From positions 62,001-126,000 of the forward strand of contig NZ_PJCF01000001.1 in the NCBI RefSeq assembly GCF_002835935.1: DNA of 64,000 bases, read 5' to 3'. This DNA is from Paraglaciecola sp. MB-3u-78. Its GTDB lineage: Bacteria; Pseudomonadota; Gammaproteobacteria; Enterobacterales; Alteromonadaceae. Under the pieces are notes generated by a model. The model did not search any database. It was given only the letters and a program-made list of their open reading frames with translations, and was not told the origin of the DNA. Positions 2,763 through 27,449 of this stretch are shown here, in pieces (positions within the stretch are counted from its first letter, which is position 1; each line of letters opens with the position of its first letter). A program made the translations under genes and the position numbers.

Positions 2763-2778
2763 TAAGACCAAGGTGGTA
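2763..2778 (+). promoter_or_regulatory. candidate CrbR operator, copy 1 (degenerate)
   Basis: TAAGACCAAGGTGGTA matches the near-palindrome upstream of crbS (21140-21155) at 12 of 16 positions, with the left half TAAGACCA identical. It lies between the divergent DUF294 (start 2655) and DUF4212 (start 2975) genes. The assignment to CrbR is inference from the shared motif and the known role of CrbS/R in controlling acs and acetate permease. Confidence 0.4.
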
Positions 2779-2974
2779 TATCTGACAAAATCAAAGCTTG
2801 CTAATGTTGTAGATAGTTAAAGTTGTATATGAATTGTTATAAGTTGTTTTCAAGCTTGTTGCGAAAACACTTGGCGACAAGTCTATATTCATACTTTTTC
2901 TCGAAAATAGAGTTATTACAACAAAAAACGACGCATGTAATAAATACAGTAACATGCAGTGCTAGGAGAATAAT

Positions 2975-3229
2975 GTGGAAAAGAAGACAACATATTGGCA
3001 GGAAAATCTGCGCTTAATAGCAATATGTCTAGTCATTTGGTTTATTGTATCATTTGGCTTTGGCTTGTTATTAGTAGAACCACTAAACGAATTCCGTCTC
3101 GGTGGATATAAGCTCGGGTTCTGGTTTGCTCAGCAGGGTTCAATTTACACTTTTGTTGGTTTGATTTTTTGGTATAGCCATAAAATGAACAAACTTGATA
3201 AAAAATACGAATCTGAGGATGGATCATAA
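2975..3229 (+). CDS. DUF4212 small membrane subunit of sodium/solute symporter
   Basis: An 84-residue protein with two hydrophobic segments (about residues 12-33 and 48-67), matching the DUF4212 (VC_2705-partner) family that always precedes an SSS-family symporter. The start is GTG at 2975, with AGGAG at 2964-2968 as the ribosome binding site. Its stop TAA overlaps the symporter's ATG (TAATG at 3227-3231), so the two proteins are translationally coupled and probably work as one transporter. It could be an accessory or stabilising subunit; the exact role is not established. Confidence 0.9.
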   Translation: MEKKTTYWQENLRLIAICLVIWFIVSFGFGLLLVEPLNEFRLGGYKLGFWFAQQGSIYTFVGLIFWYSHKMNKLDKKYESEDGS

Positions 3230-4965
3230 TGGATGAGTTAAAACTATATACCTACATCGCGGTCTTTGGCACTTTCACCCTATATTTCGCTATAGCATGG
3301 TGGGCTCGTGCCGCTTCAACCAGTGACTTTTATGTTGCAGGCGGTGGCATAACTCCTATCCAAAACGGCATGGCAATTGGTGCTGATTGGATGAGTGCAG
3401 CGTCATTTATTTCAATGGCTGGTTTAATTGCCTTTTTAGGATACGGTGGTTCTGTATTCTTAATGGGTTGGACAGGTGGTTATGTATTGTTAGCCATGTT
3501 GCTAGCCCCCTATATGCGTAAACACGGTAAGTTCACGGTTCCTGAATTCATTTCTGATCGTTATTACTCTAAAACGGCTCGCATTGTCGCTGTTATTTGT
3601 TTAATCATCGCATCATTAACCTATATCATCGGTCAAATGAAAGGCGTGGGTGTGGCATTTTCTCGCTTCTTAGAAGTTGACTACGGTTTAGGCTTGGCTA
3701 TCGGAATGGCCGTTGTTTGGTTCTACGCTGTACTAGGTGGTATGAAAGGCATTACTTATACGCAAATAGCCCAATACGTTGTGATGATCTTTGCTTATAC
3801 CATTCCTGCCGTTTTCATCTCTTTCCAATTAACCGGCAATCCCATTCCTCAACTTGGTTTAGGTTCGACATTGGCTGATGGTAGTGGTGTTTACTTACTT
3901 GATAAGTTGGACCTAGTTGTAACTGAATTGGGCTTTAAAGAATATACCACAAGCAACATGAATGGCTCATTAGATATGTTCGCCTATACCATGTCGCTAA
4001 TGATTGGTACTGCTGGTTTACCCCACGTTATCATGCGCTTCTTTACGGTTCCTTCTGCACAAGCTGCACGTTCTTCAGCAGGTTATGCATTAGTTTTCAT
4101 CTCGTTATTATACACGGTTGCTCCAGCTGTTGGCGCAATGGCACGTCTTAATTTGATGAGTACAATTGAACCAACTGCCGGTCAACATTTAGAGTATTCA
4201 GAGCGTCCTCAGTGGTTTAAAGACTGGGAGAAAACAGGTTTATTAGCATTTGAAGATAAAAATGGTGACGGTAAAATTCAATATTCAGCAGACAAAGCAA
4301 CCAATGAAATGGTGAAAGTTGATAATGATATTATGGTGCTAGCGAACCCTGCTATTGCTAACTTACCAAACTGGGTAATTGCATTAGTAGCTGCCGGTGG
4401 ATTAGCGGCTGCGCTGTCAACTGCGGCAGGTTTACTACTCGCTATATCATCATCAATTTCCCATGACTTAATGAAAGGTGTATTAACACCAAACTTGTCT
4501 GAGAAAAATGAGTTACTGACTGGGCGAATTGTTATGACACTTGCCATATTAGTCTCGGGTTACCTCGGTTTAAATCCGCCTGGATTTGCCGCAGGGACGG
4601 TGGCGTTAGCCTTTGGTTTGGCGGCATCATCAATATTCCCGGCACTAATGATGGGTATATTCTCTAAGAAAATGAGTGGCACAGCAGCCATTGCGGGGAT
4701 GTGTTCTGGTATCGGAGTAACCATGCTTTATGTATTCCAACATAAAGGCATTATGTTTATTCCTGGTACAGATTTCTTAGGTAGTATGGGTCAAAACTGG
4801 TTCTTTGGTATCTCACCTAATGCATTTGGTGTAGTGGGTGCGTTAGTTAACTTTGGAGTCGCGTTTGTCGTACTTCAGTTCACAGGACCAGCGCCTAAAC
4901 ATGTTCAAGATTTGGTTGAAAACATGCGTCGCCCTGGTGGCACCGCTGCAATCAGCGATCACTAG
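3229..4965 (+). CDS. SSS-family sodium/solute symporter, ActP-like (VC_2705 subfamily)
   Basis: The 578-residue protein has about 13 hydrophobic segments and SSS motifs such as SDFYVAGGGITPIQNGMAIG near residue 35 and AAALSTAAGLLLAISSSISHD near residue 400. Presumed substrate is acetate or a related short monocarboxylate, taken up with Na+ across the inner membrane; the subfamily and the DUF4212 partner point to the VC_2705 type. A hydrophilic insert (about residues 325-370) contains the EF-hand-like loop DKNGDGKIQYSAD, which suggests Ca2+ sensing but lacks the usual acidic residue at loop position 12. In related genomes the gene is usually followed by crbS, from which it is here separated by about 16 kb of accessory DNA. 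A strong terminator follows at 5032. Confidence 0.9.
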   Translation: MDELKLYTYIAVFGTFTLYFAIAWWARAASTSDFYVAGGGITPIQNGMAIGADWMSAASFISMAGLIAFLGYGGSVFLMGWTGGYVLLAMLLAPYMRKHGKFTVPEFISDRYYSKTARIVAVICLIIASLTYIIGQMKGVGVAFSRFLEVDYGLGLAIGMAVVWFYAVLGGMKGITYTQIAQYVVMIFAYTIPAVFISFQLTGNPIPQLGLGSTLADGSGVYLLDKLDLVVTELGFKEYTTSNMNGSLDMFAYTMSLMIGTAGLPHVIMRFFTVPSAQAARSSAGYALVFISLLYTVAPAVGAMARLNLMSTIEPTAGQHLEYSERPQWFKDWEKTGLLAFEDKNGDGKIQYSADKATNEMVKVDNDIMVLANPAIANLPNWVIALVAAGGLAAALSTAAGLLLAISSSISHDLMKGVLTPNLSEKNELLTGRIVMTLAILVSGYLGLNPPGFAAGTVALAFGLAASSIFPALMMGIFSKKMSGTAAIAGMCSGIGVTMLYVFQHKGIMFIPGTDFLGSMGQNWFFGISPNAFGVVGALVNFGVAFVVLQFTGPAPKHVQDLVENMRRPGGTAAISDH

Positions 4966-5031
4966 GCATGAATTGTTTTCTGGACGAGTCGTGTTGGTAA
5001 CATGATTTGATAAGGATGGTCATTGAATATT

Positions 5032-5066
5032 AAAGGCTAAAGAGTTTCTCTTTAGCCTTTATTTTA
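5032..5066 (+). terminator. Rho-independent terminator after the symporter
   Basis: A perfect 13-base-pair stem, AAAGGCTAAAGAG / CTCTTTAGCCTTT, with a TTT loop is followed by ATTTTAT. It ends the DUF4212-symporter transcript. Confidence 0.85.
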
Positions 5067-5187
5067 TAAATATTTAAATCAAAAATATTGAGTGAAATCA
5101 GTTAGCATGGATTAATAGTTAAGTGAAAACGCTTTTATTTGATGGTTGAACATCAAATTTTTTAAAAGCCTTAAAAAAGATAAAATA

Positions 5188-5625
5188 ATGAATAAACATA
5201 CAAGAACTGCATTTATGGTGGCACCAATTTTAGCTGTAATTGGGTATATTGCTGCAGATTATTATGAAGAAGACCAAGCTGAAAAAGAGAAAGTGATCCA
5301 GTTAGTGCCTGTTGAAGGCTGTGATGTCATCAATCAAAAGTGTATTTTGAGAGCTGGCGATTTCGAAGTGAATGTCTTTGACAAAGACAACTTAACCACA
5401 GTCAACTCAACGTTTCCGCTAGATAGCGCAACAATCTTTCTGGTTGATAAAAACAATCAGCCAACCGCCTATCCATTAGGCATGATACAAAGCCCTTATT
5501 ATTGGCATACAGAAACTAACTTGAGAGAATTAATCGGGCATTCAGGACAAAGTTACAAACTTCGACTTGTAGCGAAGATTAAAGGTGGACGTTACATCTC
5601 AGAGTTTTATACAACAACAAAATAG
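5188..5625 (+). CDS. membrane-anchored hypothetical protein
   Basis: I do not recognise the family. The likely start is the ATG at 5188 (MNKHTRTAFMVAP), giving 145 residues; the open frame also runs up to a TTG at 5146. One hydrophobic segment (about residues 8-23) looks like a signal anchor, followed by a roughly 115-residue soluble domain with two cysteines in CDVINQKC that could form a disulfide outside the cytoplasm. The beta-rich pattern (VNVFDKDN, SATIFLVDKNNQ) resembles small periplasmic sandwich domains. It stands alone, after the symporter terminator, on the left edge of the accessory stretch. Confidence 0.6.
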   Translation: MNKHTRTAFMVAPILAVIGYIAADYYEEDQAEKEKVIQLVPVEGCDVINQKCILRAGDFEVNVFDKDNLTTVNSTFPLDSATIFLVDKNNQPTAYPLGMIQSPYYWHTETNLRELIGHSGQSYKLRLVAKIKGGRYISEFYTTTK

Positions 5626-5975
5626 CATTCCATGAGCAAAGGCATGACTAAATTGTCGTTCCGATTTTACGCTTCAAAATACTAAAATGCGTTCTAATCT
5701 GATAGTCCATGAGCGAATTCCTGACGTTCAGCTCTAGTTATTCCAAGTATTAAATAAACATAAATTCATCATAAACAAACTCAATCTTCAGAGCTACTTT
5801 GCTTAACAGCGTGAGGCGCTTGTTTTGCATTTTATGAAAAATGACGTTTTATTTTACCTATACTCCGATGGCGGTCCTTCTAATAAAAACGGTTTTCGGG
5901 ATACTAAAATTGTGTCACGTAATTACAATATCAGGTATTATTTTTACAGTTATGAGACGTTAAATAATAAATAAT
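5626..5975. other. intergenic stretch with degenerate repeats, no gene seen
   Basis: No supported gene. The segment from about 5695 to 5866 is a diverged copy of sequence at 16440-16820, including a 30-base identical block at 5836-5865. A further degenerate block (GAGCG...GACGTTCAG...AGTTATTCCAA, about 5711-5748) belongs to the dispersed intergenic repeat also seen near 13575, 15838 and 16417. Confidence 0.5.
5836..5865 (+). repeat. 30-base direct repeat, copy 1
   Basis: Starts GAAAAATGACG and ends ACCTATACTC; identical over 30 bases to 16791-16820 in the same orientation. The adjoining block AGGCGCTTGTTTTG (here at about 5813, there at about 16655) also recurs, so the repeat belongs to a longer diverged unit. 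Confidence 0.85.
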
Positions 5976-6899
5976 ATGAGAAGTCTTGCCCTATTACTCT
6001 TTTGTACAATTAATACATTATCAGTCCAAGCTGATATGTGTAGCGACATTGATGGTGCCAGCATTTATTCAGATGAACCTTCGCCTGTCTATTTAGGTTT
6101 TTTTGGAAATTCCTTTGCTATTGACTCAGCTATCAACCCATTAGGAACCCACGGCTCAATATTTTCAGATTTTGGTGTATATAATATGCTGGGGTATTAT
6201 GGTTCAAATTTTAGTGAAATAAGTGCAAATAATTCGTTAGCTACAAATCCGCCTATAATTAAACGATGGGGTACTGCTACTGGTTATAAATTAACGAATA
6301 ATTCATTTGTTCGCGGTGGAATTTCATTAACTGATATTAAGAACTGTGGGTTTTACTTTAATAGTCCTGAGCTATTTGCTGACTATCCACAAACTGTTAG
6401 TGCCAGTGATGATTTATTTGATATTGTGACTATTGCGTGGTCTGAAAGTAAAGGTACAGACACCTATAAGCTGTATTATTCTCTCTCTGAATTCTCTGAA
6501 AGGATATTTATCCAAGAAACTGCTTATTTACAGGCTAATGTATCTGTAGGTGAACCCGATGTAGACTACTACTTTTGGATAACTGCAAACAATGGCCATG
6601 GTGAGTCAGTCGCAACGTTTGATTTGGGTCGTGTGATTATTGATAAGGTAACAGATACTGATGAGGATGGAGTACCTGATTACCTTGATATTTTTCCGTT
6701 AGATCCTAATGAAAATGAAGATACCGATTTAGATAACATCGGCAATAACGCTGATTTAGATGACGATGGCGATGGTTATAGCGACATCGATGAAATTCAA
6801 TGGGGAACGGATCCACTTAATAAAGACGATTTTCCTATCAGAACACGAAAACCTTGGCTTTTGAAAGTATTGAAAGACAAAATTACGGAGATTAAATAA
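5976..6899 (+). CDS. secreted protein with thrombospondin type 3 Ca2+-binding repeats
   Basis: 307 residues with an N-terminal signal peptide (MRSLALLLFCTINTLSVQA). The N-terminal 110 residues are unrecognised; about 130-225 resembles a fibronectin-III-like beta domain (YKLYYSLSEFS...YFWITANNGHGES). Residues about 228-290 are Asp-rich (DTDEDGVPDYLD, DDDGDGYSDIDE), the thrombospondin type 3 / calcium-binding pattern of surface proteins, followed by a basic tail. The stop overlaps the next gene's ATG (TAATG at 6897-6901), so it is coupled to the Hcp-like gene. An exported, Ca2+-stabilised surface or secreted protein is the safe description; any ligand is unknown. Confidence 0.75.
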   Translation: MRSLALLLFCTINTLSVQADMCSDIDGASIYSDEPSPVYLGFFGNSFAIDSAINPLGTHGSIFSDFGVYNMLGYYGSNFSEISANNSLATNPPIIKRWGTATGYKLTNNSFVRGGISLTDIKNCGFYFNSPELFADYPQTVSASDDLFDIVTIAWSESKGTDTYKLYYSLSEFSERIFIQETAYLQANVSVGEPDVDYYFWITANNGHGESVATFDLGRVIIDKVTDTDEDGVPDYLDIFPLDPNENEDTDLDNIGNNADLDDDGDGYSDIDEIQWGTDPLNKDDFPIRTRKPWLLKVLKDKITEIK

Positions 6900-7381
6900 T
6901 GACTCATTTTCAAAAAATATTAGCTTTAACACTTATCACCATGACATTAAATATTAATGCAAGGCCAACCCTCCCACCCGATGGATTGTTTATTGATGGC
7001 CAAAAAGGCTTAAAAATTGATGCTTGGAGTTGGGGTGCATCACAATCGGGAACAACTCATATGGGTGCGGGTTCGGGTGCTGGAAAAGCAAGCTTCCAAG
7101 ATATAAGCTTTACTCGACTGTCTGACAGTAATACAGCAATGTTGATGATTAAACTTTCTATTGGTAGCCATTTTCCTGAAGTAACTTTGCGGCAAGGGAA
7201 TGTTACTATTGTGATGACAGACGTTCTAGTTACCTCTATTTCCTTCAACGGGGCCACTAATCCTGTTGGCAATGGAGATGTGCTAAGAGAAAATGTTACG
7301 TTGAATTTTGCTGAATTTAATATGACCATTGATGGTAGCAGCGCGTGCTTTAAAATTGCTGAAAATTTGGCCTGCAATTGA
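6899..7381 (+). CDS. Hcp-family (T6SS tube-like) protein with a signal peptide
   Basis: 160 residues. After a signal peptide (about 1-21, ending NINA-RP) comes a domain that reads like Hcp: DGLFIDGQKG, IDAWSWGASQSG, GSGAGKASFQDISF, LSIGSHFPEVTLRQG, MTDVLVTSISF and ENVTLNFAEF appear in the canonical order. Hcp normally builds the type VI secretion inner tube in the cytoplasm and has no signal peptide. Here export is predicted, and two C-terminal cysteines (SSACFKIAENLAC) would be free to form a disulfide in the periplasm or outside. No other T6SS gene is in the window. It is translationally coupled to the preceding Ca2+-binding secreted protein. Function unknown; an exported Hcp relative co-opted as a secreted ring protein is my inference. 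Confidence 0.75.
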   Translation: MTHFQKILALTLITMTLNINARPTLPPDGLFIDGQKGLKIDAWSWGASQSGTTHMGAGSGAGKASFQDISFTRLSDSNTAMLMIKLSIGSHFPEVTLRQGNVTIVMTDVLVTSISFNGATNPVGNGDVLRENVTLNFAEFNMTIDGSSACFKIAENLACN

Positions 7382-7978
7382 AAAGAAATGCTTATACTCA
7401 CATAACCCGTTGAAATATAAGGTCGCAAATAAGATTTTCAATGGCTAGAGGAAGCCTTCTTTGAGAAGATTTTTATGTTTCTGCTTCGAGCGTAGGCTGT
7501 GTGAAAACTATTGATCAACTTTTGAGCTAAGCACCGTGTTTTTATGATCAAATAATCTTGATATTATCGGCTGCTATTTAGCCTGTTTACTATACTTATT
7601 AATAGGTTAACAAGATTCGCTGATATGTCCCACCATATTACAGGCCAAGGTCGCAACCAAGTCACCCTGTTCCCAGAAGCATTAGATGATTTCGTCAATG
7701 AAGTATGTTGACACCCACATTAATAAACCCCAGTGGCATTTCATCTCAGAACGCTAACTGTTGCCACTTTGCTGACTAACGTGAGAAACTAAAAAGCAGT
7801 CTTCAGAGTACTGCTTTCGTTCTTGAAGCAGACTTAACCGATTTAAGCTTTTGCTGTAGATATTTCTCGATTTCCTATCTACTAAACGCTTTAAGAACAA
7901 ATTTTTTATCACAATGAAATAAGGAACATTACAATTAAAATTAATTAATTATAATGTTCCTTATTGATTAATACTTTC
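7382..7978. other. intergenic stretch with an IS1182 remnant
   Basis: Apart from the IS1182 fragment described separately, no gene is supported. The stretch separates the plus-strand Hcp-like gene from the minus-strand collagen-like gene. The inverted pair AATTAAAATTAATTAATTAT near 7932-7951 next to a repeated GGAACATT / AATGTTCC pair (about 7921-7965) forms a hairpin that could end the collagen-like transcript. Confidence 0.4.
7495..7711 (+). pseudogene. IS1182-family remnant: left end plus transposase N-terminus
   Basis: GGCTGTGTGAAAACT at 7495 is the typical IS1182 terminal sequence. The ATG at 7625 opens MSHHITGQGRNQVTLFPEAL and continues DDFVNE before a TGA at 7709; this is the conserved start of IS1182 transposases. 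The remaining roughly 450 codons and the right end are missing, so this is a truncated, inactive copy. A MITE with related ends lies at 15678-15836. Confidence 0.75.
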
Positions 7979-9286: not shown

Positions 9287-9301
9287 AATACTAGTCTCCA
9301 T

Positions 9302-9634
9302 GTGGTAGTGACTGAAGTGGTCAAGTAAAATTGTTCAAAGAGTTTTATATTTACTCACGTTAATATATTAGCTTTTACTCTGTATAGAGCTACCTAGTGT
9401 GTAGGAATGTCTTGCCAGAAAAGGCTGAGAACTGCGATCTCTTTTTTAAGTAAAGTACGTAGTGAAAGTTTTTATTGGTTAAAAAAAAGTAGTCTAATAA
9501 ATGCACAGATGCAAATGCAAAGTGCAATTAACAGGTTCAGAAGTCGCCCTTTTATAGAATTACTTGAACGAACGAACATCGTTACCGAAGGAGACATTTA
9601 ACTTTTCAGTTGGTTACGTCAACAATGCGCACTG
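9302..9634. other. intergenic stretch, nothing recognised
   Basis: AT-rich sequence upstream of the collagen-like gene, presumably including its promoter. A 64-codon plus-strand frame at 9407-9601 has no ribosome binding site and no recognisable homology, and I do not call it. Confidence 0.4.
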
Positions 9635-9655
9635 CAATGTCATTAACTTAAGGAT

Positions 9656-12704: not shown

Positions 12705-12739
12705 GCCGTAAAGTATACCAAATTAGCGCATTGATTACC

Positions 12740-16336: not shown

Positions 16337-17443
16337 TGTAATAGCTTGTAAATCCTCATCATCCGCTATCTGCTATAACCGCTAAGTCGGCCAGCGAGCC
16401 ATGACTGTCGGGTATTGGCACTGAAGCGACGGACGGCTTGAGCGATCACCGGACATTCAGCCCCAGTTATTCCAACCATTGAATATCAATTGGTGATCCA
16501 AAAGATACTCAGTCACCTGAATACAAAAAATGACGACATCGTCGAAATATTGCCTCCACAAAGTAGAGCGCCGCCTCAGATAAGTCTGTTTGAATAAAAG
16601 CAGTTCATCATCATAAACAAAAGCAATATTCAAAACGGGTTTGCACAACAGTGGGAGGCGCTTGTTTTGAATTCTGAATTAAGTGGAAATAGTTGCTTAG
16701 TACACGAAAAATAGCCGACTTTCACTCCCTTAAGAATATAAAATAGATGTCAATATGGAAAATATAAGGCATCAAGTATTTTAATTATAGGAAAAATGAC
16801 GTTTTATTTTACCTATACTCTCGTCACCATGACCTGATCCTTGCGTCTGGTGATAGCTTGGTACGCGGGCTCATATTAACATTAACCAGAAATCCAAAAT
16901 GATTTGTCAAGCATCAAACGGGCTGGATTCAAGGTGCAGCGCGCAATCCGCGGTGTATTAAATTGAGATTTTACCCTTGAGGAGTTCTCAACGGCCTTGA
17001 TTAATTTGGTGCAATGGGTGGACTCTGGGTAACCCCTGTCCATAGCGAGGTGTTTTTGGAGGTTCGGATGCAACCAAGCCCGCAAGGTTATCAAGACATA
17101 CGTTCATTCGCTGTTTTTATTCAACGGTGAGTTACCAGAAATTTGCTGACAAGCAGACACAATTAGGGTCGAAAATAGACTCAATATTCAATGCAAATCA
17201 ACATAAATGCGTTTCAACGCTAACAAGTGTTCCGGTGAGATATAGAAAGATTTTCGTCCGGAGCGTTTTTTTCCAAACGGTTGCCCTCAGGCTTGGATTA
17301 CATTTAATGTGAGTCAATTTGTGAGTCAATTCGATCAATGCGGTCACGTTGCTCTTCGATCAGTTCTAGTCTATATACATTATGTTCTCCTTGATGGAGA
17401 CACAATAATAAATAATCCAATACCTAAATTAAGGAAAATTACT
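16337..17443. other. 1.1-kb non-coding stretch with decayed repeats
   Basis: No intact gene. About 16417-16466 is the best copy of the dispersed repeat GGCACTGAAGCGACGG ... GAGCGATCACCGGACATTCAG. About 16469-16675 aligns with 5736-5835; on the minus strand it keeps a 63-codon open frame (MCKPVLNIAFVYDDEL) whose counterpart at 5.8 kb is broken, suggesting a decayed gene shared by both. The minus-strand frame near 16882-17094 (LAMDRGYPESTHCTKLIKA) may be a transposase scrap. From about 17310 the upstream region of the subtilase begins; GC content rises at 17.44 kb. Confidence 0.4.
16791..16820 (+). repeat. 30-base direct repeat, copy 2
   Basis: Identical to 5836-5865, same orientation, about 11 kb apart. 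In this copy about 115 extra bases separate it from the shared AGGCGCTTGTTTTG block. Confidence 0.85.
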
Positions 17444-20431
17444 ATGTTTAAGCGAGTTGCGACATCTATCGCCTGCTCAGTGCTTGTGCTTTGTGGTATT
17501 CAGTCAGCAGTAGCCTCTGCGGCTGGCCCCCAAGCCAATCAATCAAGCGCGGCAGTCGGAAAACAAGTACAAAAAGGCGAATACAATTCATATATTGTCG
17601 TGATGGAACTTGATCCGGCGATAGCCTATAAAGGCGATATCAAAAAATATCCAGCTACCAAGCCTGGCAAGGGAAAGAAAATCAATCCCAACAGCGCGCA
17701 TGTTAAGAAGTATGCGCAGTTCCTGAACAAGTCGCACGACGATACCCTCACTGCAGCGGGACTTAGTGTGGGTGCCAAACTGCATGATTATACCATTGCA
17801 CTGAATGGCTTCGCTGCACAGATGACGCATGCGCAGGCTAAAAAGATAGCCGGCATGAAAGGTATAAGACGAGTAGTTCCCGACGTTCTGCGTCAAAAGA
17901 CCACAGAAAATAGCCCGACCTTTCTTACCCTGGATGGCCCCGCGGGGCCATGGGCGACGGGTTTTGATGGAGAGGGCGTTGTTGTCGGTGTGATTGACAC
18001 TGGCATCTGGCCAGAACATCAGTCCTTCGCCGATGACGGCAGTTATGCATCGCCACCGGTACCAGCCCCGCCCTGTGAGTTCGGCAACATCGGACACAAC
18101 CCGAATGATGCTGCGTTCACTTGCAACAACAAACTGGTCGGTGCCCGGCAAATGCTTACAACTTACCGCGCGCTAATTGGTGCAGCCCCCGATGAATTCG
18201 ACTCAGCTCGAGACGACGACGGGCACGGCACTCACACCGCATCGACTGCGGCGGGCAATGCCGGAGTCGAAGCCAGTGTTTTGGGCACATCCCGTGGCAT
18301 AGTCAGCGGTATCGCCCACAGATCTCACGTCATCGCTTACAAGGGCCTTGGCAATCTTGGCGGATTTGGCTCTGATCTCGCCGCTGCAATTGATCAGGCG
18401 GTAGCCGACGGTGTTGACGTTATCAATTACTCCGTAGGCGGTGGACCCAGCCTTACCGGGGCTGACGATATCGCCTACCTGTTTGCCGAAGATGCGGGCG
18501 TATTTGTGGCTACATCAGCTGGCAATAGCGGGCCAGGTGCAGGTACAGTAGGTGGTCCCGGATCGGTGCCGTGGCTAACCACTGTTGGCGCCAGTACTCA
18601 GGACCGCACCTTCCAGGGTTCCGCTGTATCCAGCGGTGGCTGGGAATTCTTTGGTGCCTCGATAACCGCTGGTACAGCCGAACTGTCTTTAGTTGATGCT
18701 GAAGATGCCGGGGACAACCTATGTAATCCCGGCGCGCTTGATCCCGCCCTGGTAGCTGGCAAGATCGTCTTGTGTGAGCGAGGCGCTATTGCGCGTGTAG
18801 CCAAGAGTGAAGCCGTGTCTCTCGCTGGTGGGGCAGGTATGATACTGTTCAACTCCAACGATGGACAATCGGAAGTTACTGATACCCACTGGGTTCCGTC
18901 GGTACACATCAACAATACCAATGGCCTCGTTATCAAGGCTTATATAGACAGCGAAGGAGCCGCCGCGGTGGCCAGCATCAACGGTGGTGTATCAACCCCC
19001 ATCGATGCCCCATCAATGGCTTCTTTCTCATCGCGTGGATCTAACGTGGTGGCTGAAGATATCATCAAGCCGGACGTAACCGGGCCGGGTGTAAACATCC
19101 TTGCCGGCAATACGCCGTTCCCGGATCCTGGCAGTGTCCCAGGAGAACTGTTCCAGTCTATTTCCGGAACATCCATGTCCAGCCCCCACGTGGCCGGTGT
19201 ATTCGCTCTGCTCAAGCAGGCGCATCCCGACTGGACACCGGCAATGGCAAAATCCGCGCTCATGACCACCTCCTACCAGGCTGTCAAGAAGGAAGACGGC
19301 AGCTCAGCGGCTGATCCCTTCGACATGGGTGCTGGCCATATCAATCCCGGAGGTAAGGCCAAAAAGGGCTCGGTATTCGAACCAGGACTGGTTTACAACA
19401 CGGACTTCTTTGGCTACCTCGGCTTTCTGTGTGATGCAGAACCGTCTGCCCTGTCGCCTTCCACCTGCCCGTATCTTGACTCGATAGGCGTGCCCACAGA
19501 CGCCAGCGACCTGAATATCGCATCAATCGGTGTAGCAGAACTACCGGGCAGCCAGACCGTAACCCGAACCGTGACCAGTGTTGCCAGTGAGAACGGCTGG
19601 CGCACCTATCACGTCGAGGTTGATGAGCCTCCAGGATACAACGTCAGTGTGTCACCCTCCAGTATTAAACTGAAGCGTGGTATGTCGGCCAGTTATGAGG
19701 TCACGATCACCAACGAGACCAGCCCGATTGGCGTGTGGGCTTTCGGCTCTCTTACTTGGGCTGTCCCATCGGATACATATAAGGTTTACAGCCCGATTGC
19801 CGTTCGTGGCGCGCTGTTCAATGCGCCGGTCTTAGTCGAGGGTTCCGGTGCAGTTGGTAGTGCAAGCTTCGATATGCAATTCGGCTACACGGGAAGCTAT
19901 ATGGCAGCACCTCATGGTCTTGTTGCAAATAGTCCTACTTTAGGCGACATCGGCCAGGATCCTGATCAGGCCTATCCAAGTGGCGATGATAGTCCCACCG
20001 GCGTGCATAAGATCGCGTTCCCGGTCACAGGAACTGCATTCGTTCGATGGGAGATGGTAATCCCGGGGGATGATGACATCGACCTGTTCCTGGAGAATTC
20101 TGCCGGGACGATCATTTCCGCCAGCACGAATGGTGGTACAGATGAGTCGATCGAACTAACCCTGCCTGCTGATGATACTTACACCATGGTCGTCCATGGA
20201 TGGTCCGTACCCAACGCGCCGCTGGCATACAGCTTGAACTTCTGGAATGTCCCCATGACATCGGGAGGCAGTCTGATAGTAGATGCAGCGCCGACCTCAG
20301 CGACTGTCGGAAATACGGAGACCATTGAAGTCAGTTGGTCTGGACTCGCCTCAGGAAAACATCTCGGTGCAGTGTCACACACCGGTGATTCGGGTTTGAT
20401 AGGCCTTACCCTGATCGAGGTAGACAACTAA
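17444..20431 (+). CDS. secreted subtilisin-like serine protease (S8) with PA and PPC-type domains
   Basis: 995 residues from the ATG at 17444 (AAGGA 8 bases upstream); the open frame begins earlier at 17309 without support. Order: signal peptide (to about 25), I9-type propeptide (about 45-140; YIVVMELD...LNGFAAQMTHAQAKKI), S8 catalytic domain with Asp185 (GVIDTGIW), His261 (DDGHGTHTAS) and Ser577 (SGTSMSSPHVAG), an inserted PA domain (about 395-500), a fibronectin-III-like domain (about 690-800) and a PPC-like beta domain (DDDIDLFLENSAGTI). The layout is that of large secreted or surface subtilases. The gene is clearly more GC-rich than its surroundings, suggesting horizontal acquisition. A terminator follows. 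Confidence 0.92.
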   Translation: MFKRVATSIACSVLVLCGIQSAVASAAGPQANQSSAAVGKQVQKGEYNSYIVVMELDPAIAYKGDIKKYPATKPGKGKKINPNSAHVKKYAQFLNKSHDDTLTAAGLSVGAKLHDYTIALNGFAAQMTHAQAKKIAGMKGIRRVVPDVLRQKTTENSPTFLTLDGPAGPWATGFDGEGVVVGVIDTGIWPEHQSFADDGSYASPPVPAPPCEFGNIGHNPNDAAFTCNNKLVGARQMLTTYRALIGAAPDEFDSARDDDGHGTHTASTAAGNAGVEASVLGTSRGIVSGIAHRSHVIAYKGLGNLGGFGSDLAAAIDQAVADGVDVINYSVGGGPSLTGADDIAYLFAEDAGVFVATSAGNSGPGAGTVGGPGSVPWLTTVGASTQDRTFQGSAVSSGGWEFFGASITAGTAELSLVDAEDAGDNLCNPGALDPALVAGKIVLCERGAIARVAKSEAVSLAGGAGMILFNSNDGQSEVTDTHWVPSVHINNTNGLVIKAYIDSEGAAAVASINGGVSTPIDAPSMASFSSRGSNVVAEDIIKPDVTGPGVNILAGNTPFPDPGSVPGELFQSISGTSMSSPHVAGVFALLKQAHPDWTPAMAKSALMTTSYQAVKKEDGSSAADPFDMGAGHINPGGKAKKGSVFEPGLVYNTDFFGYLGFLCDAEPSALSPSTCPYLDSIGVPTDASDLNIASIGVAELPGSQTVTRTVTSVASENGWRTYHVEVDEPPGYNVSVSPSSIKLKRGMSASYEVTITNETSPIGVWAFGSLTWAVPSDTYKVYSPIAVRGALFNAPVLVEGSGAVGSASFDMQFGYTGSYMAAPHGLVANSPTLGDIGQDPDQAYPSGDDSPTGVHKIAFPVTGTAFVRWEMVIPGDDDIDLFLENSAGTIISASTNGGTDESIELTLPADDTYTMVVHGWSVPNAPLAYSLNFWNVPMTSGGSLIVDAAPTSATVGNTETIEVSWSGLASGKHLGAVSHTGDSGLIGLTLIEVDN

Positions 20432-20458
20432 TTCTTCAAGGATATTAAACTTTTGAAG

Positions 20459-20482
20459 GGCTCCCGAGGGAGCCTTTTTTTT
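20459..20482 (+). terminator. Rho-independent terminator of the subtilase
   Basis: GGCTCC-CGAG-GGAGCC hairpin (20459-20474) followed by eight T. It lies between the convergent subtilase and lipoprotein genes; the T-run serves the plus strand only. Confidence 0.9.
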
Positions 20483-20486
20483 ATCC

Positions 20487-20978
20487 TCAGGTGTCACCAA
20501 ACGGTTCCGGACCTACCCCTTTGTGAGGCGTTATCGGTCTGGCACAATAAAATGGGCCCCGGCCACCACCGCTGTGGTAGTAATAAGACTTGCCGACAAC
20601 TTCAAACCTTATCTGTGATCCGTTCACCAGCACCTGTTTGTAGCGCATACCCGGCTGCGGACAACCGAGGCTGCCGTCGCGCCAGGTGATCTCACGTATC
20701 TCTGTCAGTGTTATTTCTGACGGCAGCACGTTGAGCCGCTTCGCCAGATCGGCTTGCGCCAGTTGCACCAGTGTTGATGATGCGGGATGACTTTCCTGAG
20801 ACGGCATAATCACCTTATCCCCCTTTAGTTCCACCTCCACTCCGGAGTGGCAGGCGCAATTAGCCAGTATCAGGAACAGCACACCCATGCGGCTAGTTTC
20901 TTTACCTAGCCTTCGTAGTGCTGAAACAGAAAATCGGCTAGAAGCTTTGATACTGACCACCGCGTCCCCCCCCTTCAA
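20487..20978 (-). CDS. putative lipoprotein with GCPQPG domain
   Basis: The start is uncertain: the full frame gives 163 residues, but a lipobox-like LILANC follows a Met at 20888. The C-terminal half (LAKRLNVLPSEITLTEIREITW..., SLGCPQPGMRYKQVLVNG, IRFEVVGKSYYYHS) is a recognisable domain of about 75 residues found in many secreted bacterial proteins; I know no established function. It is convergent with the subtilase and shares its high GC, so the two probably arrived together. An inhibitor or regulator of the protease would be a guess. Confidence 0.65.
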   Translation of the reverse strand: MKGGDAVVSIKASSRFSVSALRRLGKETSRMGVLFLILANCACHSGVEVELKGDKVIMPSQESHPASSTLVQLAQADLAKRLNVLPSEITLTEIREITWRDGSLGCPQPGMRYKQVLVNGSQIRFEVVGKSYYYHSGGGRGPFYCARPITPHKGVGPEPFGDT

Positions 20979-21139
20979 ATTAATCTTCGATGTATAAGAA
21001 GAATAAACCGCATACCTGATCTATTCAACAGGGTCCGATTTTGTTGGGGCAAGTCAATGGACGAGAAAGTTAAAGTGTAAATACCTTTTGTCCTTGTTGT
21101 GGTTTCTTCGCAATGCAATAACTCAGTGCCACCTCAAAA

Positions 21140-21155
21140 TAAGACCATAGTCTTA
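21140..21155 (+). promoter_or_regulatory. candidate CrbR operator, copy 2 (best palindrome)
   Basis: TAAGACCATAGTCTTA has perfect inverted arms TAAGAC/GTCTTA around CATA. It lies 80 bases upstream of the crbS start. It matches the acs-upstream copy at 14 of 16 positions. Assignment to CrbR is inference. Confidence 0.5.
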
Positions 21156-21235
21156 GACCCTCAAAGTTATAGATTAGCTATGCTAAAGTAATATCCAAGA
21201 TGAAAAAGAAACTGTGAACCGAATTGGAATGAAGC

Positions 21236-24200
21236 ATGGCAATGGGTTGGGTAGCGTTAGCACTAGTGTATTTAGGTGGGCTCTTTTGGCTTGGAAGGTG
21301 GGGTGATAGCGATTCCCCATTAGCCAAAAAATTAACATCTCATCCTGCGATCTATTCGCTTGCGCTTGCAATTTATTGTACAGCTTGGACTTACTTTGGG
21401 TCTGTTGGCGAGGCGAGTCGCAATAACTGGCAATATTTACCTATTTTGCTTGGCCCTATGCTGGTGTACGTGTTTGGCTTTCGCTTTATCCAAAAGCTCA
21501 CCTTCGTTAGCAAAAAGCAACACATCACCACCATCGCTGATTTTATTTCGTCCCGCTATGGCAAACGTCAGACTGTGGCGTTATTGGTAACCATCATTGC
21601 GCTTCTCGCAACTATTCCCTATGTCGCGTTACAACTAAAAGCAATCGGTTCAGCATTTCAGTTGGTATCTGAACAGCAAGACAGTGAGTTGATTGTGCTA
21701 ATTGCAACAATTTTCATTGCTTTGTTTTCTATTTATTTTGGTACACAAAAAACAGATGTCACTGAATACCGCAGGGGCTTGATGCTCGCAATTGCTTTCG
21801 AGTCCAGCGTCAAACTCATCGCATTGTTAGTGATTGCTATAGTCGCATTTTTCATGTGGTATCCAAACAGCACAACACCACTTTTACAGTCATTTAGCAC
21901 ACCTGAAGCCTTAAGCACCTTTGAATCGTTTCCTTTCATCGCACAGACCATTATGGCTGGAGCCGCTGTTATTTGTTTGCCTAGGCAATTTCATGTGGCC
22001 GTTGTTGATAATTTAAGTATGGAACATCTGAAAACTGCGCGATGGCTGTTTCCTTTGTATCTTGGACTCATTGCAATGACCATTCCGGTGATTGCAATAG
22101 CAGGGCAAACACTCTTGGCGAGCACATCAGCTGAACCGGATACTTATGTACTTGAGCTGGCGTTAATTTCAGGGTCTGGGTTTGTGCAAGTATTGGTCTT
22201 TGTAGGTGGCCTTTCTGCTGCTACGGCTATGATAATAGTCGCGACACTCACCTTAAGCACTATGTTGACCAATGACGTCATTTTGCCAAAGCTGCTATCA
22301 AAACACAGTACAAATTATCGACAACATAACGTCAGTAAAGTCATTCTGGTGACTCGTCGCTTCGTCATTGCCGGATTATTATTGTTGGCATATTTGTATC
22401 ATCAGCAGATGGGTAATAGCCATTCACTAGCATCAATTGGTCTTATTGCCTTTTCGCTGGTCATTCAGTTGCTACCGTCTATTATCGGTGGTTTGTACTG
22501 GAAAAAAGGACATGCCCATGGTGTTTATGGGGGGTTGATAAGCGGAATTGTAGTGTGGATATTGTGGCTCCTGTTACCCTTTTTTGAAGGGACCAATAAT
22601 GCGCAGTTAAATAATGACAATATCTCTTTTATCGCCATTATTAGTTTGCTCACTAATTTTGTTGCATATGTGTTGTTCTCATATATCGCTACAGAGCGAC
22701 TTATTGACCGTATTCAGGCTCAAGCTTTTGTTGCTCCTCGGGAAAATTTGGATAATCAACCTAAGAAACCTTCGACCTCAGTAACGACCGGCGATCTAAT
22801 AACCTTACTCTCGACTTTTCTGGGCGAGACACGTTGCCAGAGGTTGGTTGAAGACTTTCAACTTCACAACGATATTTCTGTTCATGCAGATACTGCACCT
22901 CCTGCTCATTTTGTTATATTTTGCGAACGAGCGTTAGGAGGGGTTCTCGGAGGCTCTAGCGCTAGAGCCCTTATTGATAGTGTATTGAGTGGCAAAAAAC
23001 TCGGGTTTGAAGAAGTCATTAATTTTTTCGATGACTCCACCCAAGCAATAAAATTTAATACTGGCGCTTTGTTTACTTCAATTGAAAGTCTCGATCAAGG
23101 TATTAGTGTCATCGATAAAAACCTGAATCTGGTGGCGTGGAACAAACGTTACTTGGAACTATTTAACTATCCCCAGGATATGGTTTTAGTTGGGACACCA
23201 GTTGAAAAGCTAGTTCGTTACAATGCATCTCGTGGTGATTGTGGGTTAGGTGATATTGATGCTCTAGTCAAAAAACGGTTGGGTCACCTAAGACGCGGAC
23301 ATGCTCATAAATTCGTGCGACAGCGAAGTGATGGAAAGATGATTGAAATGGTTGGAAACCCTCTGCCTGGCGGCGGTTTTGTGACCAGCTTTAGTGATAT
23401 TACATCCCATATTGAGTTACAAATGGCGCTCAAGGAAGCCAATATTGACCTGAAAAACAGAGTCAAAATTCGCGGGGAAGAAGTTCAGGCTATCAATGCT
23501 GAATTACACAATGAAATTGCCCGTCGGGTAGATTTGGAGCGGGAACTGATTGATGCTCGTCAAATTGCCGAAAAAGCCAATGCAAATAAGACTCGATTTC
23601 TGGCGTTAGCTAGCCACGATATATTGCAACCTTTAAACGCGGCCAAACTTTATCTATCGGCCCTAGATGAAGTCACAATGAAAAGCGAAGTCCGAACAAT
23701 AATTAATAAACTTGGAGAAAGTTTATCTTCAAGTGAGGTGCTTATCGCAACTTTATTGGACATAGCACGATTAGATCAGGGTGAATTAAAACCTGTTAAA
23801 GCGATGTATTCGATTGTCAAAATACTGTCTCCGCTAATAGATGAGTTTTCAATGCAGGCACAAAATAAAGGCCTGAAGTTCAGCACCAGGATTGCAGATG
23901 TCTGGGTTGAAACTGACAAAACTTATCTTTACCGAATTGTTCAAAACCTTTTATCCAATGCAATTAAATACACCAATTCGGGGCGAATTCTGTTAACCGT
24001 CAGAACCCGAAGAAATACGGTGCTGGTCCAAGTCTGGGATACCGGAGTTGGTATTTCTACCAATGAGCAAAAGCATATTTTTGGTGATTTTTATCGTGTC
24101 GACGGAAGCAAAGAACGCGGTGCGGGTTTGGGATTAGGTGTAGTATCGCGGTTGTCAAAGAAACTCGATACACCTTTAACGATAACTTCAAACCTTCGAA

Positions 24201-24658
24201 AAGGTAGTTGTTTTAGTCTTACACTCCCAATGTGCCAAGCCGTTGCTCAGAGTCCAGAACCACTCGCCAAAAGTTTCACAGGGCTTGCTGGCCTTGAGGT
24301 TTTATGTGTGGACGACAAGATTGAAAATCTCGACGCAATGCAGACCTTACTCGGGAAATGGCAAGTGATATGTGTGCAGGCACATAATGTTGCTGAAGCG
24401 CGGCGAAAAGCAGAGAGACATCAACCTGATGTGTTATTGATTGACTATCATCTTGGCAACGGGATCAACGGTCTGGAATTAATTCAGAAGCTTAGAAGTG
24501 ACGCCGGAACAGAAATACCAGCGGCTTTGGTCACAGCTAATCAAGATGAAGAGGTAAAAAAGCAGTGCGCTGCATCAACGATTGGCTATTTGAGTAAACC
24601 AGTGAGGCCCGCTAAACTAAGAGCGCTATTGCTGAGCCTCAAGAATAAAAAGAAGTGA
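21236..24658 (+). CDS. crbS: CrbS-type hybrid histidine kinase with SLC5 transporter domain
   Basis: 1,140 residues. Order: SSS/SLC5-like transporter module with about 13 membrane segments (1-490), a STAC linker (about 515-570; TGDLITLLSTFLGETRCQRLVEDF), a PAS domain (about 620-720), a coiled coil, HisKA with phospho-acceptor His794 (SHDILQPLNAAK), HATPase (NLLSNAIKY, DTGVGIS, GAGLGLGV) and a receiver with Asp1070 (LLIDYHLGNG). This is the layout of CrbS/CbrA-like sensors; CrbS with CrbR drives the acetate switch by activating acs in Vibrio and Pseudomonas. Tail-to-tail with crbR and beside acs here, so CrbS is the better name than CbrA or NahK. In this genome it has its own motif-bearing promoter because the symporter is 16 kb away. 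Confidence 0.88.
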   Translation: MAMGWVALALVYLGGLFWLGRWGDSDSPLAKKLTSHPAIYSLALAIYCTAWTYFGSVGEASRNNWQYLPILLGPMLVYVFGFRFIQKLTFVSKKQHITTIADFISSRYGKRQTVALLVTIIALLATIPYVALQLKAIGSAFQLVSEQQDSELIVLIATIFIALFSIYFGTQKTDVTEYRRGLMLAIAFESSVKLIALLVIAIVAFFMWYPNSTTPLLQSFSTPEALSTFESFPFIAQTIMAGAAVICLPRQFHVAVVDNLSMEHLKTARWLFPLYLGLIAMTIPVIAIAGQTLLASTSAEPDTYVLELALISGSGFVQVLVFVGGLSAATAMIIVATLTLSTMLTNDVILPKLLSKHSTNYRQHNVSKVILVTRRFVIAGLLLLAYLYHQQMGNSHSLASIGLIAFSLVIQLLPSIIGGLYWKKGHAHGVYGGLISGIVVWILWLLLPFFEGTNNAQLNNDNISFIAIISLLTNFVAYVLFSYIATERLIDRIQAQAFVAPRENLDNQPKKPSTSVTTGDLITLLSTFLGETRCQRLVEDFQLHNDISVHADTAPPAHFVIFCERALGGVLGGSSARALIDSVLSGKKLGFEEVINFFDDSTQAIKFNTGALFTSIESLDQGISVIDKNLNLVAWNKRYLELFNYPQDMVLVGTPVEKLVRYNASRGDCGLGDIDALVKKRLGHLRRGHAHKFVRQRSDGKMIEMVGNPLPGGGFVTSFSDITSHIELQMALKEANIDLKNRVKIRGEEVQAINAELHNEIARRVDLERELIDARQIAEKANANKTRFLALASHDILQPLNAAKLYLSALDEVTMKSEVRTIINKLGESLSSSEVLIATLLDIARLDQGELKPVKAMYSIVKILSPLIDEFSMQAQNKGLKFSTRIADVWVETDKTYLYRIVQNLLSNAIKYTNSGRILLTVRTRRNTVLVQVWDTGVGISTNEQKHIFGDFYRVDGSKERGAGLGLGVVSRLSKKLDTPLTITSNLRKGSCFSLTLPMCQAVAQSPEPLAKSFTGLAGLEVLCVDDKIENLDAMQTLLGKWQVICVQAHNVAEARRKAERHQPDVLLIDYHLGNGINGLELIQKLRSDAGTEIPAALVTANQDEEVKKQCAASTIGYLSKPVRPAKLRALLLSLKNKKK

Positions 24659-25315
24659 TCAGGAAAACTGGACTCTAGGTGGCGGCTCTAACTGTAGCTG
24701 GGAAGCTATAAGTACGGCCTGAGTGCGATTGTTGATCCCTAACTTCTTAAACACGGCTGTGACATGTGCTTTTACCGTAGCAACTGCAATGTCCAGTTCG
24801 TAAGCTATTTGCTTGTTTAGCAAACCATCTCGCATAAAACACAGCACTTTATACTGGGCAGGAGTGAGACTAGAAACTGACTCAGCAAGTTTCACAAAAG
24901 CTTCATCAAAGTCGGTCACATCGGAAGGCATTTTTTCTGGCACCCACACCTCCCCTTCTAAGATGCTGGCAACTGCTTTTGCTACTTCACAAGCCTGGGT
25001 GGTTTTTGGAATAAATCCAAGGGCCCCTGTGTTCATCACTTTTGACACAATGCCAACATTTTCAATACCTGATACAACAGCAACAGGTATCTCTGGAAAC
25101 AATTTTCGAATATGGATAAGACCAAATAAATCGGTGCTTCCAGGCATATGTAAATCAAAAAGCAAAAGGTCGACTTCGTTCTCATGCAGCGTCTTGACTG
25201 TTTCATTCAAGTCACTAGTTTCCAACAAATTCAAGTCGACTAGATTGAGCATTAATGCTCCCCTAAGCGCGTCGCGATACATGGGATGGTCATCAGCTAG
25301 CAATATTGTCAACAT
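24659..25315 (-). CDS. crbR: CrbR-type LuxR-family response regulator
   Basis: 218 residues. An N-terminal receiver with acidic pocket LLADDHPMYRDAL and phospho-acceptor Asp54 (LLFDLHMPG) is followed by a LuxR/FixJ-type HTH (about 150-208; LTPAQYKVLCFMRDGLLNKQIAYELDIAVATVKAHVTAVFKKLG). The gene is convergent with crbS with no gap between stop codons, and precedes acs on the same strand. It is the expected partner of CrbS and activator of acs; the shared TAAGACCA motifs are its candidate binding sites. Confidence 0.9.
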   Translation of the reverse strand: MLTILLADDHPMYRDALRGALMLNLVDLNLLETSDLNETVKTLHENEVDLLLFDLHMPGSTDLFGLIHIRKLFPEIPVAVVSGIENVGIVSKVMNTGALGFIPKTTQACEVAKAVASILEGEVWVPEKMPSDVTDFDEAFVKLAESVSSLTPAQYKVLCFMRDGLLNKQIAYELDIAVATVKAHVTAVFKKLGINNRTQAVLIASQLQLEPPPRVQFS

Positions 25316-25431
25316 TGTATTTCCTCAATTAAAGCAAATCTAGTTTAACAACTCGTAGCTGATAGGCCAAGCAAATGTAAATTATTAGTTAACAGGCACT
25401 ATTAGCTTATAAATACGCTTAGTTAACGACA

Positions 25432-27372
25432 CTACATATTAAGCCTATTCTCTATCAGGCTATCCACAACAGCTGGGTCAGCCAGTGTTGATGTATCACC
25501 TAACTGCTGATATTCATTAGCTGCAATTTTGCGTAATATTCGGCGCATGATCTTACCCGAACGGGTTTTCGGCAACCCTGCAGTCCACTGAATTAAATCA
25601 GGTGTCGCGATAGGACTCAGTTCCTTTCGCACCCAAGAACGTACTTCTGCGGTAAGTTCGTCGCTTGGAGAAATACCTTCTACCGGTGTAACGTAAACAT
25701 AAATAGCTTGGCCTTTGATATCGTGGGGATACCCCACTACTGCGGCTTCTGCAATTGACGGATGAGAAACGAGGGCACTTTCTATCTCAGCCGTGCCTAA
25801 ACGGTGCCCTGAAACATTTAAGACATCATCGACTCTGCCAGTGATCCAGTAATAGCCATCCTCATCTCTTTTGGCTCCATCGCCCGTAAAATAGACATTA
25901 TCGTAGGTGCTGAAATAAGTCTGAATAAAGCGTTCATGGTCTTTGTAAATGGTTCGTGCTTGTGCAGGCCAGCTGTCTTTTATGCCTAAATTGCCTTCTG
26001 CCGGACCATCAAGTTCAACCCCTTCGCTGTCGAACAATGCGGGCACAACACCAAATAAAGGTAACGAAGCAGACCCAGGTTTCAAATCGGTAACCCCAGG
26101 TAAGGGTGAAATCATCATGCCGCCGGTTTCCGTTTGCCACCAAGTATCAACTATCTGGCAACGACCCCGTCCAATGACATCATAATACCAGCCCCAAGCT
26201 TCTGGATTGATAGGTTCTCCAACCGAACCCAATAAACGTAATGATTTTCCGTGAGTATCGGATGCAGCAAAATCACCATGGGCCATCAAGGCGCGAATGG
26301 CTGTAGGAGCGGTATACAATATGCTGACCTGATGTTTATCTACCACTTGGCAAATCCGCCTGACATCTGGGTAGGTAGGCACACCTTCAAATAACAAGGT
26401 AGTAGCGCGATTGGCTAATGAACCATATACCATGTAGCTATGACCTGTGATCCAACCCACATCCGCAGCGCACCAATATACTTCTCCAGGTTGATAATCA
26501 AACACGTATTTATGAGTGATTGCGGTGTACAGAAGATAGCCACCTGTAGTGTGAACTACCCCTTTTGGTGTGCCTGTAGAGCCTGATGTATAAAGAATAA
26601 AGAGGGGATCTTCCGCGTTCATGACTTCTGGTTCACAGTTGCTACTGCAGTCACTCACCAGATCCTGCCACGAGCAGTCAATATCACCCATGTCCACATT
26701 CGCTTCTGTATGTTTCCACACTATAACTTGTTCAACACAAGGGCAGCGGTTATCCAATAGCGCCTCATCAACATTCGCTTTCAATGGGATGGGTTTTCCG
26801 GCTCTGAGCGCTTCATCAGCGGTGATGACTATTTTAGCACCGCAGTCATTTACACGATCGGCAATAGCATTGGGAGAAAAACCCGCAAAAATAATAGAAT
26901 GTATCGCTCCCAGTCTTGCGCAAGCTAACATTGCATAAGCGGCTTGAGGGATCATCGGCATATAGATCGCCACTCGGTCACCCTTCTCGACCCCAAGTTT
27001 TTTCAAACCATTGGCAATTTTACATACTTCATCGTGCAGTTCTTGATAGGTGATATGGGCGCTATGTTCCCCACAATCACTTTCCCACACTATGGCGTTT
27101 TGATTAGCATGTTGTGCAAGATGCCTATCAATACAATTGTAAGAGACATTTAGCTCTCCATCTTCAAACCACTTTATTTGGGCATCTTGCTTATTGAATG
27201 AGGTGTTTTTAATTTTTTGAGGAAACTTAAACCAATCTAAGGCTTTCGCTTGCTCAGCCCAAAATATGTCGGGGAACTCCACCGATTGTTGATACATCTC
27301 TAGGTATTGCTCTTTACTCAGGTGAGCATGTTTTTTTGCCTGTTCAGACACAGGATATATTGCATCGGTCAT
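25432..27372 (-). CDS. acs: acetyl-CoA synthetase (AMP-forming)
   Basis: 646 residues, the normal length. It activates acetate to acetyl-AMP and then acetyl-CoA, the high-affinity route for acetate use. Visible motifs: the P-loop-like [29 protein letters not shown], the hinge/adenylation segment [20 protein letters not shown] and, near the C-terminus, [11 protein letters not shown] with the Lys that is controlled by reversible acetylation in well-studied enzymes. A candidate CrbR site lies 62 bases upstream of the start. Confidence 0.98.
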
Positions 27373-27433
27373 ATGTTATCTCCAGCGACATTTACTAGTG
27401 ACTATAATCTACTCCCTACTATAAACAGTGGAA

Positions 27434-27449
27434 TGAGACTTTGGTCTTA
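27434..27449 (-). promoter_or_regulatory. candidate CrbR operator, copy 3
   Basis: On the minus strand TAAGACCAAAGTCTCA, 14 of 16 identical to the crbS-upstream copy, with arms TAAGAC/GTCTCA. It lies 62 bases upstream of acs, where an activator site would be expected. Confidence 0.5.

Follow-up and report, generated by a model that had tools for sequence, protein, structure and literature searches.

This work deals with a 64,000-nucleotide (nt) stretch of the genome of Paraglaciecola sp. MB-3u-78 (called the window, at its full length) and, in particular, with three palindromes at the promoters of its acetate locus: one between the genes for a DUF294 protein and the DUF4212 subunit of a symporter (2763-2778, plus strand, TAAGACCAAGGTGGTA), one 80 nt upstream of the kinase gene crbS (21140-21155, plus strand, TAAGACCATAGTCTTA) and one 61 nt upstream of the acetate-CoA ligase gene acs (27449-27434, minus strand, TAAGACCAAAGTCTCA). 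Judged by sequence comparison, the three are very probably ACTU-type operators of the response regulator CrbR (also known as ErdR), whose regulon in Alteromonadaceae would include a porin of the DcaP family. A first-pass annotation of the same DNA had put one motif at positions 2763, 21140 and 27434, next to these very genes, and had proposed the three as candidate CrbR operators. The sites lie exactly where it placed them, domain and family matches agree with the genes that it named, and its proposal gains support from the published form of the ACTU, from conservation, from a fixed spacing to -10-like hexamers and from co-occurrence with CrbR. The sequence and position of the sites, their conservation and this co-occurrence are direct observations, and the strongest additional target, which the annotation did not include, is the DcaP porin, encoded outside the window.

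The annotation also mentioned a palindromic CrbR motif reported in Pseudomonas, though not its sequence. This motif is the ACTU of Pseudomonas fluorescens, an inverted repeat without which CrbR does not activate acs (Sepulveda and Lupas 2017, PMC5715377; this and all other papers are cited here for particular passages). It is located at -52 to -36 relative to the acs start site, just upstream of the RpoD promoter, four point mutations in it abolish activation, and activation of the acs promoter in E. coli depends on CrbR plus an intact ACTU; published examples are TACGACTAAAGTCTAAA (Table 4) and TAATACTAAGGTCGTCT (PMC5715377). The window sites at 21140 and 27434 fully match this form (i.e., an imperfect inverted repeat of about 16-17 nt with the core ACYNNNGTC). 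A matrix of 16 columns, trained on nine distinct crbS-promoter sites from other genomes, ranks the three sites first to third in the window (21.9, 19.8 and 16.8 bits), the fourth match scoring 12.1 bits; the weakest of the three, and rank 3, is the one at 2763, with GGTGGTA as its right half. Up to three mismatches to TAAGACCANNGTCTTA are found in 13 strand-matches in the window, as opposed to a mean of 6.0 (standard deviation 2.5) in 100 shuffles, only one of which gave 13 or more. Seven P. fluorescens sites scored with an Alteromonadaceae matrix gave uneven results (13.0-16.8 bits for those of acs, a methyl-accepting chemotaxis protein (MCP), CheV and PFLU0110, 11.6 for actP, 9.9 for crbS and only 2.7 for PFLU5625), which suggests that the motif differs somewhat between the two groups. 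A perfect palindrome, TAAGGCTATAGCCTTA, is also found at 59954-59969 of the window; its motif score is low (11.2 bits).

The site at 2763 is letter-identical, its degenerate right half included, in all five same-genus genomes with a divergent DUF294/DUF4212 pair (the window's and four relatives, where DUF294 is 79-88% identical), being enclosed in an invariant 24-nt block, TATAAGACCAAGGTGGTATATCTG, and such conservation speaks against chance. The sequence TAAGTCAAC at 2739-2747, on the DUF294 side of the site, is invariant in the five aligned genomes as well, perhaps as a weak half-site or as an element of the promoter of DUF294. Candidate -10 hexamers follow the sites at nearly constant distance: TAATGT of the DUF4212-symporter promoter 23 nt after the site (2802-2807, plus strand; TAGTGT in the four relatives), TATGCT of crbS also at 23 nt (21179-21184, plus strand) and TAGATT of acs at 22 nt (27406-27411, minus strand). 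This predicted offset of 22-23 nt fits the P. fluorescens ACTU at -52/-36 (PMC5715377).

The same geometry recurs in a panel of 73 loci, made of 59 relatives (L025-L082 and L095), 13 same-genus loci and the window; 80 relative loci were found, of which 21 remote ones (L083-L094 and L096-L104, with 25-31% identity, or in two cases 41% over 69 residues) were left out. The panel contains 51 divergent crbS/DUF4212 pairs, all with a site between the two genes and 40 with exactly one. Since the matrix derives from crbS sites, the presence of a site there is partly built in; its position is not, and a TAnnnT hexamer occurs 22-24 nt away in 51/51 pairs towards DUF4212 and in 36/51 towards crbS, against a background of 8.5%. 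Given hexamers at fixed spacing on both sides, one operator appears to serve two divergent promoters, that of the symporter and that of the sensor. Upstream of acs, where 450 nt were scored in 68 of the panel loci, at least one site was found in 62 with a matrix built from ten crbS-promoter sites only. Left out of this count were L055, L071 and L078 (no usable acs start) and L043 and L053 (less than 450 nt upstream), L043 having two sites and a truncated porin-like open reading frame (ORF) and L053 one site. Both the acs and the crbS/DUF4212 sites recur across Alteromonadaceae and, as acs is followed after 116 nt by crbR in the same orientation, the genes of both halves of the CrbS/CrbR system are probably under ACTU control.

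If CrbR is what these sites serve, they should go together with it. The strict palindrome TRMGACYWWRGTCKYA has three sites in the window's genome (0.47 expected from the base composition of the window, one in the reversed control) and 30 sites in 21 sampled same-genus genomes, against nine in the reversed control; 27 of the 30 lie in crbS, acs or porin promoters. The others are L205 and L207 (in the genomes G013 and G016) and L206 (in G004, upstream of an efflux-type gene). In both L205 and L207 the palindrome (around 1501) occupies the equivalent intergenic position, flanked by a MarR-like gene and an ORF of 397-402 codons, outside the acetate locus. The strict form occurs in 15/15 of these genomes with a CrbR ortholog (E≤1e-60) and in 0/6 without, although the reversed control averages 0.43 per genome, so that six empty genomes are not striking by themselves; at the acetate locus or the porin it is found in 14 of the 15. 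ACTU sites precede acs, actP-like and DUF294-type genes where CrbS/CrbR is encoded and are missing where it is not, G004 having its only strict site off-locus. It could be argued that the sites bind some other LuxR/NarL-type regulator whilst CrbR acts elsewhere. Half-site preferences can indeed be common to LuxR-type regulators, and five same-genus genomes have a second CrbR-like protein, 47-48% identical (L225-L229), that would be a candidate. However, no such paralog is found at E≤1e-60 in the window's genome and nine other CrbR-bearing genomes, in which strict sites are present, and a CrbR-dependent motif of the same form is published in P. fluorescens (PMC5715377), which makes this alternative very unlikely.

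Beyond the window, the reach of CrbR seems to extend to the outer membrane. The third strict palindrome of the window's genome is located on another contig (C23, 536690-536705), 87 nt upstream of a gene for a 372-residue porin of the DcaP family, which matches Pfam DcaP PF19577 with 38.8 bits (cut-off 27) and the profile of the solved DcaP 6eus with E 1.4e-24, and whose predicted fold (mean predicted local distance difference test score 72) has 6eus as its best PDB match, with template modelling scores of 0.72/0.77; there was no NCBIfam match. In 14 of the 15 CrbR-bearing same-genus genomes the porin gene lies divergently upstream of acs, in three of them with an intervening gene, the exception being the window's genome, and the divergent arrangement is also seen in named Alteromonas, Aliiglaciecola, Salinimonas and others, if not in every one. 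With adjacency set at 700 nt and the crbS-trained matrix, at least two ACTU sites are found upstream of acs in 45/51 loci with an adjacent divergent porin and in 0/17 loci without. Fisher's exact test gives p 2e-11 for this association, a value that ignores relatedness; on a quick tree of Acs plus CrbR, with long branches meeting, the porin label changes at least eight times on well-supported branches, and in eight independent well-supported contrasts the second site changes in the same direction in 5-6 and in the opposite one in none (sign test median p 0.031, range 0.031-0.063). A site is present within 700 nt of 14/16 same-genus porin matches, the two without being extra copies in the window's genome and in G010, and each of the 14 same-genus genomes in which the porin was matched has such a site upstream of one copy or more; a porin match in another genus (G023) had no site. 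Genomes whose acs lacks the porin have a distant porin homolog (E≤1e-3) elsewhere in 7 of the 13 searched, one of these seven (Arenicella, L189) with a strong site. In many loci the porin-side site is directly followed by a conserved extension of the kind TAGACCA..GCTTAT, which resembles an extra half-site.

The second site at the acs flank could, in principle, be just an additional operator of acs, in tandem with the first and giving stronger activation, with the porin as an unregulated neighbor. Both sites do lie in one intergenic region, some acs flanks carry as many as three, and the porin side lacks the fixed -10 spacing. Nevertheless, a tandem arrangement does not account for the lack of any second site in all 17 loci without an adjacent porin, nor for porins that hold a site of their own when they are away from acs. 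In G006, G013 and G016, which are counted among these 17 loci, one gene stands between acs and the porin and each of the two keeps a site; the porin on C23 is preceded by a strict site at 87 nt, and a stand-alone porin in a member of another family (G074) by one at 74 nt, with no acs in the 20 kb covered there. Taken together, this makes the tandem alternative unlikely and favors a porin with its own CrbR operator. The intervening gene has been typed in G006 only (L184:3326-5011), where it is a methyl-accepting chemotaxis gene with a Cache domain, and in P. fluorescens an MCP is among the best ACTU matches by q-value (Table 4 of PMC5715377). ORFs are found in a similar place in L182 and L183.

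The window itself seems to have kept a trace of the porin that its acs lacks. Its acs flank is 87% identical to that of G001 through 27486 and 77% to that of G017 through 27514, so that 27450-27514 (plus strand) carries what DNA similarity marks as a remnant of the promoter of the divergent porin, TAGAGCATAAGTTTATATGCAA (in G001, TAGACCATGAGCTTATATGCAA), in which GACC has become GAGC. Beyond it, no similarity to porin coding sequence was detected (best tblastn E 1.7). The porin on C23 is 82% identical to that of G001, compared to 97% for CrbR, which makes a mere transfer of the original copy away from the acs flank improbable.

Several observations weigh against this interpretation. Some of them concern motif frequency. 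Up to one mismatch to TRMGACYWWVGTCKNA is found in 74 strand-matches in the whole genome and 79 in the reversed control; up to three mismatches to a narrower pattern yield 257 and 179, respectively, part of this excess coming from palindromes that match on both strands. In a sample of 59 genomes from the order, 12 sites of the strict palindrome were counted as opposed to 28 of the reversed control and, of the nine outside the window's genome, five are not at acetate or porin genes (the other four are one in G074 and three in G064, a member of the family, where they belong to crbS and acs/porin), so the exact strict form is not a general signal across the order. The patterns and the matrix were, moreover, built after the acs and crbS sites of Alteromonadaceae had been seen, which makes the counts at those genes partly circular. 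G004 has CrbR, yet its sole strict palindrome is off-locus, and 6/68 acs promoters have no site at the threshold. At 2763, only the left half and the core GGT of the ACTU form are present, the right half being degenerate, and the P. atlantica T6c homolog of DUF294 is given as lacking an ACTU in Table 3 of PMC5715377. No convincing -10 was found towards DUF294, nor a fixed -10 offset at the porin promoter; the porin may be activated differently, or its -10 may be placed elsewhere than searched. Only one site is found in 6/51 porin-bearing loci, namely two of Psychrosphaera, three same-genus loci with intergenic regions of 149-171 nt and one shared site, and one whose porin is 675 nt away with its own site beyond the 450 nt scored. 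Lastly, the best NCBIfam model for the window's CrbR is that of ErdR (NF041830), at 191.5 bits and thus below its cut-off of 390.

On the frequencies just given, one might hold that short AT-rich inverted repeats are common in this genome and that three of them happen to lie near acetate genes. The first-pass annotation had itself named random frequency across the genome as what would speak against it, and this is indeed what loose matches show, whereas strict palindromes exceed the control in the genus. Motif frequency alone was therefore rejected as proof, the one-mismatch matches being at control level and the order-wide strict form below it. What chance fails to explain is that the three sites are the three top scores of the window, that a degenerate one is identical in five genomes out of five, that strict genus sites concentrate at crbS, acs and the porin and that they are missing from all six genomes without CrbR; coincidence is hence barely credible. 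Inspection of 24 loci from the genome scan (L001-L024) by their flanking ORFs placed many of them inside ORFs. Other candidate matches precede MsrA-like and globin-PAS genes by 50-71 nt (L010 and L013).

We infer from these sequences a simple mechanism, in which binding, activation, feedback, the order of events and the substrate of the porin are all predictions. A dimer of phosphorylated CrbR would bind to each palindrome, immediately before the -35 region, and activate sigma70 promoters of acs (with crbR behind it), crbS, the operon of the DUF4212 symporter and, probably, DUF294 with its exonuclease gene, so that the kinase and the regulator would both be under positive feedback; in Alteromonadaceae, the DcaP-family outer-membrane porin would be added to these targets. 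The usual layout is two divergent promoter pairs (symporter/crbS and acs/porin), each enclosing its operators. Neither pair is together in the window's genome, the symporter standing beside DUF294 and the porin on another contig, each with an operator of its own. More broadly, we lean towards the view that CrbS/CrbR in Alteromonadaceae controls the path from the outside of the cell to acetyl-CoA (i.e., the DcaP-family porin as an inducible outer-membrane channel for acetate or small carboxylates, the symporter and Acs), with operators that belong to their genes and remain at the porin where an insertion, a deletion or a relocation has broken up the divergent acs-porin pair. The substrate in this scheme is a guess from the DcaP family and the neighborhood of the gene.

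The genes themselves fit such a locus. Next to the first site, on the minus strand, are the DUF294 gene (778-2655, start at 2655), with CBS and nucleotidyltransferase domains and, by resemblance to published descriptions, of the PFLU5625/PP_0354 type, and downstream of it a gene with domain matches to an RNase_T/DEDD 3'-5' exonuclease of the PP_0353 type (93-833). On the plus strand are the DUF4212 small subunit of a Na+/solute symporter (2975-3229, GTG start at 2975, TIGR03647) and the actP-like large subunit of the VC_2705 family (3229-4965, TIGR03648). Further on are crbS (21236-24658, plus strand), crbR/erdR (24659-25315, minus strand), assigned by its REC and LuxR HTH domains and its neighbors acs and crbS, and acs (25432-27372, minus strand, TIGR02188). 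CrbS has 12 hydrophobic, predicted transmembrane segments within residues 1-487, as an SLC5-like transporter domain would, and its N-terminal profile matches over residues 6-487 a solved 'histidine kinase' (10ed_A, E 1.5e-67); against such a domain, Pfam SSF was not matched there, and the profile meets the window's own SSF protein only with E 0.00025 and a probability of 43%, over 117 columns. The C-terminal part has PAS (PAS_7), HisKA, HATPase and terminal REC domains, all present; the domain scan listed no STAC match, the existence of such a Pfam model being unchecked. Upstream of crbS, at 17309-20431, is a gene for a 1040-residue subtilisin-like protease (S8, PA, fn3 and PPC domains), in the place that the symporter operon takes in many relatives. 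In the acetate island of G008 (L181:3698-6741) FIST and GGDEF-EAL genes are found between the symporter and DUF294, and other same-genus genomes have genes of similar size there.

The closest known system is CrbS-CrbR of P. fluorescens SBW25 (PMC5715377), with the same inverted repeat and promoter spacing, a hybrid kinase with a transporter domain, a LuxR-type regulator and targets that include acs, the actP operon and a cAMP-binding/CBS/nucleotidyltransferase protein of the DUF294 type. Unlike there, acs is here followed by crbR in the same orientation and one of the sites belongs to a DcaP porin; crbS of SBW25 is matched only weakly (q 0.6), whereas in the window no site scores higher than that of crbS. 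In P. putida KT2440 (MxtR/ErdR), purified ErdR shifts the promoters of actP-I, scpC and the CBS-domain gene PP_0354 in gels, binding to acsA-I not being seen (Henriquez and Jung 2021, PMC8402216; see also PMC9927547); PP_0354-PP_0353 is an operon of a CBS-domain protein and an RNase_T (PMC9927547), just like window genes 778-2655 and 93-833. A. baumannii EmaSR is an MxtR/ErdR-like system for ethanol and acetate, for which another binding box has been proposed (PMC9603970, PMC10891947); its emaR promoter is nearly inactive without EmaSR, a precedent for autoregulation, but that of emaS is not induced (PMC10891947), whereas crbS carries its own site here. As to porins, PP_2662/PA1974 of the Pseudomonas ped cluster is a putative outer-membrane porin beside short-chain alcohol oxidation genes, thought to carry alcohols, in a review naming CrbRS/ErdR as possible higher regulator; unlike here, its passages give neither linkage to acs nor an ACTU site (PMC12997753). 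DcaP of A. baumannii (PDB 6eus; PMC7573547), a trimeric channel of 16 strands that prefers anions and has an affinity for dicarboxylic acids, is alike in family and fold but only 22% identical over the fold match, while the porin here is linked to acs and ACTU sites.

The sites of the window are thus members of a published operator class, and the result for the window is an ordinary confirmation, plus a crbS that is likely autoregulated. Searches of the open-access PMC literature brought up no link of CrbR/ErdR with a DcaP porin or with Alteromonas: the word porin occurs in the reference list only (PMC5715377, PMC10903459, PMC6591292) or nowhere in the text (PMC8402216, PMC9927547, PMC9603970, PMC10891947), and porins are discussed under CbrB and SigX (PMC8871633). 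Nor were the porin branch, the operator shared by crbS and the symporter or their separation in this genome found in print in that literature. The loci compared here can be seen as natural experiments of deletion, insertion and relocation, in which the operator stays with its gene. Much of the carbon exchanged in the sea passes through acetate, whose entry across the outer membrane is commonly regarded as passive and unregulated. If the acs-linked porin answers to CrbR, many marine bacteria would have an outer-membrane step under their acetate switch, and a testable substrate would be at hand for a porin with none known.

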